Part shown: positions 3,001 to 64,000 of the stretch, one piece after another
Numbering within the stretch: position 1 is the stretch's first letter
Layout of the letters: every line of letters starts with the position of its first letter
DNA from: Lachnospiraceae bacterium
Lineage (GTDB): Bacteria; Bacillota; Clostridia; Lachnospirales; Lachnospiraceae
Length of the DNA stretch: 64,000 bases
Reading direction: 5' to 3'
Assembly: GCA_022794265.1 (NCBI GenBank)
Contig: JAAWEK010000023.1
Location: forward strand, 29,696-93,695
Notes under the pieces: model-generated
The model's database searches: none
The model's input: the letters and a program-made list of their open reading frames with translations, nothing else
Told to the model about the DNA's origin: nothing
Translations under genes and position numbers: made by a program

Positions 3001-3700
3001 CGGAAACCTCCCTGCCTGCGGTATTTCCTTTTGCCGGTCTGCTGCCTGCAGGATTTATCTTTCCTCCGGATGCCTTCTCTCCGTCCATTTCAGGATTTCT
3101 GTTCTTCGAAGCCTGAATCTTCTCCTCTACTCTGGCAACAATAGCTGCCACCTCGTTTTCCATCTGAATTTCATTGAGTTTGGCATACCGGCTCTGCTCT
3201 GGCTCCAGATATTCATATCTCACTTCTATGGGAATCCCGCATCGCTCGTTAAAAATTTTTTCCAGTATCCGCTTCAGTTCCCCCGATTTTACGGTAGAAA
3301 TAACCGTTTCCGGCACCTTTAACACCATGATATCTTCCTGAAACGATACTTCCGCCCGGCTCAGGATACTATATTCCATACGGCTGTAATGATAGATTTC
3401 CTTCAGAATACTATCCCGGTAAGCTTCATACAGATTTTCAGGATTATACTGTGCCGACAGATGAAACTGTTCAATAATTTTAATCCGTACCCCCTGCCTT
3501 GCAAACAGTTTTTCAATACATCGTTCCACTTTAAAGACCGCCTCTTTCTGAATCAGGCGGTCACTGTCAATATATATACGAATACAATTTTTTGTGCGGT
3601 TATTTACCACACGTTTTACCATCACATTGCCGAATATTCCTGTCAGTTCCCGGTTTAACTGCAATGTGGAAAATACTTCTAAAAAATTCTTTGGTTCCAT
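1..3700 (-). CDS. polC: DNA polymerase III PolC-type alpha subunit, 3' end cut by window edge
   Basis: Replicative DNA polymerase of low-GC Gram-positives with built-in 3'-5' proofreading. About 1,233 codons are visible; the family is usually 1,430-1,500 residues, so only the C-terminal part is outside the window. Visible in order: N-terminal region, OB fold (about residues 250-320), PHP domain split around the exonuclease (ELHCHTKLSDMDG near 378), DEDDh exonuclease (VVFDLETTGLS near 480, HNAEFDTGF near 558, ENHHRAVDDA near 617), a Cys4 zinc site (CKKC near 968, then CPDCG) and the polymerase palm acidic motif EPDIDLNFSGEY near 1025. The ATG at 3698-3700 is the first usable start because an in-frame TAA lies at 3707-3709. 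It is the last gene of the long minus-strand operon, 20 bp after ispG. Confidence 0.97.
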   Translation of the reverse strand, partial: MEPKNFLEVFSTLQLNRELTGIFGNVMVKRVVNNRTKNCIRIYIDSDRLIQKEAVFKVERCIEKLFARQGVRIKIIEQFHLSAQYNPENLYEAYRDSILKEIYHYSRMEYSILSRAEVSFQEDIMVLKVPETVISTVKSGELKRILEKIFNERCGIPIEVRYEYLEPEQSRYAKLNEIQMENEVAAIVARVEEKIQASKNRNPEMDGEKASGGKINPAGSRPAKGNTAGREVSAGTSDSFRKKEGGFQRGYRRSDNPNVIFGREFDTPAMELKDIDGEMGEVTVRGQIRLVEERPIKNERTILSVTITDYTDSIVFKMFVRDENLEELRGNLKKGTYIKVKGITVLDKFDNDLVISSVNGIMKTTDFSVKRMDNSAEKRVELHCHTKLSDMDGVADAKSLIARCKEWGHTALAITDHGVVQGFTEAWHALQKLEGKFSFKEPFDFKVIYGVEAYLVDDLKEIVVHSKNQSLDDDYVVFDLETTGLSVRKNNIIEIGAVKVSGGKIVDRFSTFVNPKEPIPFQIENLTGISDSMVMDAPEIEEVLPEFLEFAKDCVLVAHNAEFDTGFIINEAEKQKLPHDFTIVDTVPLSRILIPQISKFKLNNVAKALNVSLENHHRAVDDAGCTAEIFVKFVKMLKDRDVYTLDELNEMASVSVENIKKQRSYHAIILAVNETGRENLYRLVSDSHVTYYHRWPRVPKSDFLKHREGLLIGSACEAGELYQAILEEKGEEVIAGLVNFYDYLEIQPLGNNRFMIEDERHENIHSNEDLIEINKKIVDLGNQFNKMVVATCDVHFLDPQDEVYRRIIMASKGFKDADDQAPLYLRTTEEMLEEFKYLGSEKAYEIVVTNTNKIADMVENMFPVCPDKCPPVIENSDQTLRDICYNTAHEMYGEHLPEIVVERLERELNSIISNGFAVMYIIAQKLVWKSNEDGYLVGSRGSVGSSFVATMAGITEVNPLRAHYYCKKCHYYDFDSEEVKKYVGASGCDMPDKVCPDCGEQLVKAGFDIPFETFLGFKGNKEPDIDLNFSGEYQSKAHEYTEVIFGKGQTFRAGTIGTVADKTAEGYVRKYCEERGIRKRRCEVTRIAEGCTGVRRTTGQHPGGIIVLPIGKDINTFTPVQHPANDMTTKTVTTHFDYHSIDHNLLKLDILGHDDPTMIRMLEDITGLDAKDIPLDNKEVMSLFAGTEALDITPEDIGGCELGSLGIPEFGTDFVIQMLKDTKPKSFSDLIRI

Positions 3701-15779: not shown

Positions 15780-15808
15780 ATTATCTCATTTTTTCAAACA
15801 ATTGTCAA
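15780..15808 (-). promoter_or_regulatory. Sigma-A promoter of pckA
   Basis: Minus-strand -35 TTGACA (15803-15808) and -10 GATAAT (15780-15785) with a 17-bp spacer, about 107 bp upstream of the ATG. The leader contains the hairpin described separately. Confidence 0.75.
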
Positions 15809-15856: not shown

Positions 15857-16132
15857 TGTAATTTTGCCAAACGGACGCAGTTACGCCCGGTACCCCTGGT
15901 CTGAATGTTCCACTACAGGCAGACGGAAGTTCTAAGTGTTCTGCGGGAGATTATCTCAGGCGGACGCTACCGGCGGATATTCGGCATCCTGCCTCAAATC
16001 CGCCTTTTTCTGACCTCGTGTCAGAAAATAGCTGAAATCAAAGCAGAACACTAAGAACTTACAATCTGCCCTTCGTAATCACATTCGGACCAGGGGTACC
16101 GGGCATAACTGCTGTGTGTTGGATGAAGTAAC
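15857..16132. repeat. Large palindromic element, copy A
   Basis: Arms 15877-15944 and 16043-16112 are near-perfect inverted repeats (about 68 bp, with the outer 32 bp differing only by two C/T changes that keep wobble pairs). Between them lie a 46-bp core (15959-16004, beginning GGCGGACGCTACC) and a 9-bp hairpin, TTTTCTGAC (16006-16014) with GTCAGAAAA (16020-16028). Similarity to copy B extends beyond the arms (ACGGACGCA on one side, TGCTGTGT and TTGGATGAA on the other). No ORF of note. Nature unknown: structured RNA or a non-autonomous mobile element. Confidence 0.8.
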
Positions 16133-16326
16133 AATGACAAACCGAATCAATCCGTCTGCTGAACAAAGGTTAAAAAAGATTTAAAAAAAAGCAGTTTTTC
16201 AGGCTTTTAAAATAATTAACCTGTGTCTGAAGGCTTTCACCTTTGCTCTTCTCTGTCAGATTTACAGAATCAGTCATATTCTTACCAGATGAGTACTTGT
16301 CAAAATATAAGATTGATATAATTTTC

Positions 16327-16606
16327 CATTGTAAATTCATCCAAAACACAGCATCTATGCCCGGTGAAATCGCTTCGAATGTGACTACGAAAGGCAGATG
16401 AAAGTTCTTAGTGTTCTGCTTTAAATTGTAGCTATCAACTGACACGGACGTCAGTTGAAGGCGGATTTGAGGCAGGATGCCGAATATCCGCCGGTAGCGT
16501 CCGCCTTAGAACATCTGGAGCAGAACACTTAGAACTTCATCTGCCTGTAGTGGAACATTCGAAGCGATTTCACCGGGCATAGATGCGTCCGTCAGACCAA
16601 TTTACA
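16327..16606. repeat. Large palindromic element, copy B (inverted relative to copy A)
   Basis: Arms 16351-16419 and 16520-16586 pair over almost their whole length. The 46-bp core at 16460-16505 is the exact reverse complement of copy A's core. The side hairpin is TCAACTGAC (16435-16443) with GTCAGTTGA (16450-16458). Where the arms differ from copy A (for example GGTGAAATCGCTTC versus GGTACCCCTGGTC) both arms change together. The 220 bp between the copies (16133-16326) hold nothing I recognise. Confidence 0.8.
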
Positions 16607-63768: not shown

Positions 63769-63862
63769 CCTCCCTGTACCTTCAAAACTACACATTATAT
63801 TTTCAAACTTTCAAGACCCTGTCTGTTCCCGATATTCTTAAAACATGTTCCCAGACCTCAAT

Positions 63863-64000
63863 GGATAAGCCCTCGACCTATTAGTATCAGTCAGCTCCAT
63901 GCATTGCTGCACTTCCACCCCTGACCTATCTACCTCGTCGTCTTCAAGGGGTCTTACTACTTGCGTAGAGATATCTCATCTTGAGGGGGGCTTCACGCTT
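63863..64000 (-). rRNA. 23S ribosomal RNA, 3' end (partial)
   Basis: Reverse complement shows the universal 3' terminal region: AGCGTGAAGCCCCCCTCAAG, then the variable helix, GCAGCAATGCATGGAGCTGA and ACTAATAGGTCGAGGGCTTA near the end. The gene continues beyond the window. No 5S gene follows within the 95 nt before the terminator. Confidence 0.93.

Follow-up and report, generated by a model that had tools for sequence, protein, structure and literature searches.

TwoAYGGAY was reported in 2010 in a paper whose table lists it as probably an RNA (PMC2864571), and it is catalogued in Rfam as RF01731. A role in binding CsrA has been proposed for it in a paper that describes its external stem as poorly conserved (PMC4333381), and the account of Rfam 15 adds two covarying pairs (PMC11701678). 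The parts of these three papers that deal with the motif, supplements aside, make no mention of a multi-copy spread or of pairing between copies.

Among the closest described RNAs are the sponges of CsrA. The SELEX consensus of CsrA is RUACARGGAUGU, with the GGA usually in a hairpin loop, and in Firmicutes the described antagonist of CsrA is a protein, FliW (PMC7652899). TwoAYGGAY resembles the sponge RNAs CsrB, CsrC and RsmZ in that its hairpin loops carry GGA, up to two per element, which amounts to many sites per cell in sum. It differs from them in that it consists of many dispersed two-site copies, whereas the sponge RNAs are each one gene with many sites (PMC7652899), and in that a search for sigma-70-like sites did not find a promoter of its own.

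Palindromic DNA repeats provide a second comparison. REP sequences and BIMEs, among them the CGTC-tagged REPs, are mostly intergenic, multi-copy palindromes that occur mainly as head-to-head dimers (Di Nocera et al. 2013, PMC3733652), and so is TwoAYGGAY. REPs of the CGTC type are described as lacking a dedicated transposase (PMC3733652), and likewise none was recognised, by eye, in the 40 largest neighbour clusters of TwoAYGGAY. REP palindromes measure 20-40 bp (PMC3733652), whereas TwoAYGGAY measures ~245-663 bp and has a branched apex; CGTCC is found near the right end of TwoAYGGAY in some genomes only, and the motif appears to be placed differently with respect to the stem. The MITE-like elements bcr1, RUP and NEMIS (named in PMC3733652) are, like TwoAYGGAY, non-coding, a few hundred base pairs at most, dispersed and able to form strong hairpins, but the arms of TwoAYGGAY are specific to each copy and yet self-complementary.

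Here we describe a pair of elements, A and B, that are larger than TwoAYGGAY as it stands in Rfam, since they have outer arms, and that belong to a family with many copies, acquired by insertion and arranged in head-to-head pairs. New here are the extent beyond the model, the copy counts, the empty sites, the head-to-head bias, the association with csrA and the analysis of covariation.

Results

Two copies of TwoAYGGAY between pckA and an HD-GYP gene

The stretch of DNA that was analysed (the window) comprises 64,000 nucleotides. In it, pckA and an HD-GYP gene flank two long palindromes in opposite orientation, and the inverted-repeat search and the sequence bear out the original prediction on this point. 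As delimited by sequence, inverted repeats and fold, element A lies on the minus strand (15872..16115) and runs from GCGTCCG at its 3' end (15872-15878) to ACAGC at its 5' end (16111-16115); element B lies on the plus strand (16348..16591) and runs from ACAGC (16348-16352) to GCGTCCG (16585-16591). The two are head to head, the 5' ends of the strand modelled in Rfam facing each other across a gap (16116..16347) in which the promoter search found no sigma-70-like site. With cmscan and Rfam 15, both match the full 168-position RF01731 model, whose gathering cut-off is 43 bits: A with 108.4 bits (15910..16078, minus strand) and B with 116.1 bits (16386..16553, plus strand). Both structures are copies of TwoAYGGAY, and the suggestion that they might be an undescribed structured RNA is thereby set aside. 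A partial 23S rRNA gene lies at the edge of the window (63861-64000, minus strand).

The RF01731 model ends inside the palindrome, and copy-specific outer arms continue to the ACAGC and GCGTCCG ends in both elements. The inverted-repeat search places the arms of A at 15877..15908 (3' side) and 16081..16112 (5' side), 32 bp and 94% complementary, and those of B at 16351..16382 (5' side) and 16555..16586 (3' side), also 32 bp and perfectly (100%) complementary; in the folds, both arm pairs extend inward with internal loops. By eye, motifs resembling ACAGC and GCGTCCG also border the inner domain of the element. Folded as RNA, B has a z-score of -17.7 and A one of -14.2, and for each element none of 200 shuffles folded as well.

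The inner domain carries two hairpins, placed by sequence, cmscan and hairpin calling. In A, hairpin 1 (16006..16028) has the loop ACGAG, in which GGA is lost, and hairpin 2 (15972..16004) has the loop AGGAT, in which it is kept; in B, hairpin 1 (16435..16458) has the loop ACGGAC, an AYGGAY loop with a CsrA-type GGA, and hairpin 2 (16460..16492) again has AGGAT. GGA is present in three of the four loops of the pair, and B loop 1 alone fits AYGGAY exactly. The 46-bp core that had been called identical proves to be an exact reverse complement between the copies (15959-16004 and 16460-16505), both arms of a copy do change together, and the 9-bp side hairpin differs by three compensated changes, A having TTTTCTGAC/GTCAGAAAA (16006-16014 / 16020-16028) where B has TCAACTGAC/GTCAGTTGA (16435-16443 / 16450-16458). 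The match to an Rfam family, the loss of GGA in A loop 1 and the head-to-head arrangement had not been part of the original prediction.

Copy number, distribution and length

The source genome (G000) holds 18 RF01731 matches, of which six lie at the end of a contig, and one further truncated copy at the end of contig C25. Seven contig ends fall in or at a TwoAYGGAY element (C5, C6, C11, C12, C13, C25 and C32), so assembly seems to break at the long palindromes, and the number of pairs is probably an underestimate. In 17 other carriers that were counted in full, picked mainly because they had many matches, there are 7 to 52 copies. Two of nine species of the source genus carry TwoAYGGAY, the source species included, as do 35 of 200 genomes in a sample of the family; in a sample of the order, 22 of 295 genomes match, 18 of them above the cut-off. 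With the stricter search that was used for the family, no more than 1-6 matches came up in 21 of the 35 carriers, in some of them just one, so that a flood of CsrA decoys would not be general. When the named collection was scanned for a sequence pattern, the matches listed came mainly from Lachnospiraceae (Roseburia, Lachnospira, Agathobacter and MAGs), and 99 of 116 stretches from that scan, again among the matches listed, hold TwoAYGGAY by HMM. Carriage by phages or plasmids was considered and rejected, the window pair having no match in either collection and TwoAYGGAY being in none of 12 pattern-matching viral contigs.

The element is ~245 bp long in the window pair. In a genome from a related genus (G404), 9 of the 11 copies read are palindromes of 511-663 bp, and in the remaining 2 the seed-based palindrome search saw a shorter part. 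The conserved unit in G404 is ~470 bp and lies inside the longer palindromes; identity between its copies is mostly 87-96%, with a few at 75-80%. One copy (L015, ~1600-1635) has a small extra palindrome inserted in hairpin 1, that is, a nested palindrome.

Orientation and gene context

Among 24 copy pairs less than 1.2 kb apart, a set that includes close pairs fetched on purpose, of either orientation, 18 are head to head, 6 are tandem and none is tail to tail. The head-to-head count is 16 of 21 when three pairs less than 250 bp apart, which may be double matches to a single palindrome, are left out. In a second set, not chosen for pairs, all nine pairs among the matches listed are head to head.

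TwoAYGGAY is mostly intergenic, 28 of 172 copies overlapping an ORF called by a simple ORF caller. The downstream gene lies on the same strand in 75 of the 172 copies, on the opposite strand in 93 and on an unknown strand in 4. Sigma-70-like sites are not enriched upstream of copies (14 of 153 forward, 25 of 153 reverse), and strong forward promoter-like sites are found downstream of 33 of 169 copies as against upstream of 14 of 153. In the window, a promoter-like site (TTGACA, 17, TG before GATAAT; 11/12) lies on the minus strand at 15780..15808, past the 3' end of element A and ahead of pckA, and A therefore probably lies outside the pckA leader. The orientation of downstream genes and the position of this site together indicate that TwoAYGGAY is not a leader RNA. 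We note that the Cis-reg type which RF01731 has in Rfam finds no support in the orientation of the genes next to 168 copies.

Empty sites in sister species

The other eight species of the source genus have no close match to pckA, only weak partial ones in three of them, and the search for an empty site of the window pair was therefore moved to the genus of G404. All four copies examined in G404 are missing in sister species that keep both flanking genes, with three or more such species at each of the four sites. The flanking genes are 600-710 bp apart in G404 (~900 bp in one alignment) and ~4-180 bp apart in the sisters; the exceptions are at one site (L167 copy 2), where G357 has a gap of ~2.2 kb and G417 is rearranged. 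At three of the four sites the sequence itself was inspected by eye, and it showed ordinary terminator hairpins, a hairpin of another kind or no recognisable feature in the sisters; none of the 18 sister loci that cover these three sites matches RF01731. TwoAYGGAY spreads by insertion. The empty sites, the up to 52 copies and the patchy distribution thus favour one of the two options first offered for the pair, that of a non-autonomous mobile element.

A search for target-site duplications found element ends that are not sharp and sister sites that are too diverged. No transposase was recognised by eye beside copies in the first 70 residues of the proteins of the 40 largest neighbour clusters. 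A Y1 transposase domain is present in 17 of 35 carriers and 98 of 165 non-carriers (p 0.26), and none was found in the source genome, which is 91% complete. CGTCC is found near copies in 40 of 167 right flanks and 7 of 167 left flanks, and 26 of the 40 come from three genomes (G000, G016 and G094).

We also considered whether the outer arms derive from hairpins that already stood at the target. In nine 20-kb stretches of G404, the other palindromes are of terminator size (37-67 bp), with two long-spaced repeats besides and none of the large type, and by eye different copies still have residues of their outermost stems in common, which counts against target-derived arms; the idea was rejected. 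Genome G161 has a different branched hairpin (GGTTACG..CTACAAGCC..; L177 ~1334-1501 and L187 ~3406-3569) at two of the sites where G404 carries an insertion, possibly a second dispersed structured repeat; in L177 it matches no Rfam family.

Covariation in the stems

The case first made for the pair looked to further copies with covarying pairs, and these are many: RNAalifold predicts 33 pairs in 36 aligned copies, 31 of them with two-sided changes. In the arms outside the model, 254 within-genome copy pairs have 993 two-sided changes where ~205 are expected by chance, and 824 of the 993 lead from one Watson-Crick pair to another, in cells that are not independent.

Isolated stem mismatches in 167 copies are G.U in 119 cases and A.C in 79 (110 and 76 distinct cases), G.U thus being ~1.5 times as common as A.C, and in the core stem alone they are equally frequent at 7 each (6 and 7 distinct). 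Single changes between closely related copies give G.U 165 times and A.C 79 times in the core stem, and 398 and 336 times in the outer arms, in each case over 254 copy pairs with non-independent cells. In a set of 71 copies, G.U and A.C number 196 and 215 without clean flanks and 44 and 21 with clean flanks. In 46 distinct tRNAs (phage T5, E. coli and fetched loci) G.U makes up 5.1% and A.C 1.1% of pairs, 38 against 8 or 4.75 times (p 0.003 against the element arms), the tRNAs being counted over all stem pairs and the element over isolated mismatches only. Terminator-like hairpins, of which 74 were counted, have 25 G.U and 10 A.C and do not differ significantly from the element arms (p 0.25). 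Since these hairpins resemble the element arms and the tRNA counting differs, the argument for upkeep at the level of DNA is a moderate one.

The 372 compensated changes are clustered, 45 being adjacent where 20 are expected, and they include 160 transversions, for which G.U cannot serve as an intermediate. Template switching is a published source of compensated changes (PMC8794818). The near-pure Watson-Crick covariation points to maintenance of the pairing at the level of DNA, for instance by template switching, no less than to selection on an RNA. Selection on an RNA is only hinted at in the core stem, since the counts of single changes (165 against 79) and of distinct isolated mismatches (6 against 7) disagree there. 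The covariation that had been read as that of a selected RNA or single-stranded DNA fold is real, but the step from it to RNA selection is weakened by template switching and by the small excess of G.U over A.C. A pseudoknot between the GGAY loops and GUCC was rejected; by eye, the loops change without their proposed partner.

GGA loops and the association with csrA

Hairpins could be called automatically in 164 of the 172 copies. GGA is present in both loops of 108 copies, in one loop of 46 and in neither of 10, hence in at least one loop of 154 of 164, and since hairpins can be missed these counts are a lower bound. The stems around the GGA loops change freely between copies while the loops keep GGA, and loops such as GACAAGGAUGUC fit the CsrA SELEX consensus. 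In the source genus, loop 1 is mostly ACGAG or ACGAT; 13 of 16 copies in the source genome have no GGA there, and only 3 of the 16, and 1 of 8 in G001, have GGA in both loops. That so few copies of the source genome have both GGA loops counts against the reading of the element as a CsrA decoy.

In the family sample csrA (PF02599) is found above the cut-off in 108 of 200 genomes, comprising 34 of 35 carriers and 74 of 165 non-carriers (Fisher p 1.8e-9, with the kinship of genomes ignored); csrA without TwoAYGGAY is thus found in 74 genomes. Flagellin, with kinship again ignored, is found in 35 of 35 carriers and 75 of 165 non-carriers, and because csrA and flagellin co-occur almost perfectly, CsrA is not singled out. 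The Y1 transposase domain, a control of similar prevalence, shows no association with carriers (p 0.26). Among further genomes csrA is present in 17 of 17 carriers, 4 of which match RF01731 only below the cut-off, and in 16 of 22 non-carriers; this second sample adds little beyond its carriers, since 15 of 16 hand-chosen order-level non-carriers have csrA. In the source genus, the five species without csrA all lack TwoAYGGAY, and G003 and G006 have csrA and lack the element. Of the features that would mark a sRNA that titrates CsrA, presence only together with CsrA holds but for one carrier without a csrA match (G176, 93% complete), and is inseparable from flagellin; a regulated promoter of its own was not found among the sigma-70-like sites searched. 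We note that second, longer CsrA-like proteins (~90-130 aa) are encoded beside flagellin genes (G050:C54:10614-10763, and similarly in G045, G065, G082, G024 and G203).

Discussion

We have found that TwoAYGGAY is a dispersed palindromic repeat that spreads by insertion. The reading that we prefer, and whose chances we judge to be even, is that it is non-autonomous and that its transcript, if made, presents two hairpins of the CsrA type and acts as a decoy for CsrA. The element would insert mostly in intergenic DNA, often in head-to-head arrangement with a neighbouring copy, and may be transcribed by readthrough or from a promoter of a kind that our search does not recognise. The two hairpins at its apex, usually with a GGA loop, could together hold a CsrA dimer, and many copies might then serve as decoys for CsrA or buffer it. 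The arms may stay complementary in part through template switching, which would copy one arm onto the other, and the outer arms could thus drift freely and come to differ between copies. Judged from sequence, a decoy role would be the best fit to the GGA loops and to the link with csrA. We note that the rarity of G.U would be odd for a selected RNA and counts against an RNA decoy.

The main rival, which we consider possible if somewhat doubtful, is that TwoAYGGAY is a palindromic repeat of DNA only, like an oversized REP/BIME or MITE, whose single-stranded or cruciform form is read by a transposase or a repair enzyme, with the GGA loops belonging to the recognition site and the RNA having no role. 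Insertion, as seen in the empty sites, is what such a repeat would show; head-to-head pairs are the preferred dimer type of most REP families (PMC3733652), and the nearly pure Watson-Crick covariation, the transversions and clustering among compensated changes, and the failure of the sigma-70 search to find a promoter all point the same way. On the other hand, no transposase was recognised in the 40 largest neighbour clusters and Y1 is not associated with carriers, the link with csrA and flagellin is left unexplained, and the GGA of the loops fits CsrA. Single changes in the core stem, moreover, favour G.U over A.C (165 against 79), and isolated mismatches do not repeat this. The two readings may meet in a third, which we put forward only tentatively and hold to be rather unlikely in its full form: a selfish or domesticated palindrome of flagellated Lachnospiraceae and their relatives, kept up by template switching, would furnish high-copy genomes with dozens of two-site CsrA decoys.

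We give little credence to mobilisation by a RAYT, a REP-associated tyrosine transposase of the Y1 type, as proposed for GTAG REPs: the palindromes, the head-to-head pairs and the excess of CGTCC in right flanks (40 against 7 of 167) would suit it, but the Y1 domain is found in only 17 of 35 carriers, without association (p 0.26), and not in the source genome, and three genomes supply 26 of the 40 right-flank motifs. It is equally improbable that TwoAYGGAY is a stand-alone functional small RNA, vertically inherited and duplicated once or twice, since the strong fold, the covariation and the single matches of some carriers, which would agree with this, are outweighed by the 7-52 copies in the 18 fully counted genomes, the presence in two of nine species of the genus and the empty sites, all of which contradict it. 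That it is a leader RNA which regulates the next gene in cis, for which the Rfam type and the position of A upstream of pckA on the same strand can be cited, is scarcely credible and largely refuted by downstream genes on the same strand in just 75 of 168 copies and by the promoter-like site between A and pckA, and further opposed by the direction of B, which faces the HD-GYP gene from its 3' side, by promoter-like sites that are commoner downstream of copies (33/169) than upstream (14/153), and by the score of n for cis-regulatory in the table of PMC2864571.

TwoAYGGAY has stood since 2010 with no assigned function and with a doubtful Cis-reg label; here it emerges as a spreading, often high-copy repeat. 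Dense two-sided changes alone, we caution, are no proof of an RNA, since one arm of a DNA palindrome can be copied onto its partner. The genome-wide association with csrA agrees with the published idea of a role in CsrA binding, and both the question of spread and that of CsrA become directly testable. If the third reading above is true, control of CsrA in Firmicutes would have, in addition to the protein FliW, a layer made of RNA and supplied by a mobile repeat.
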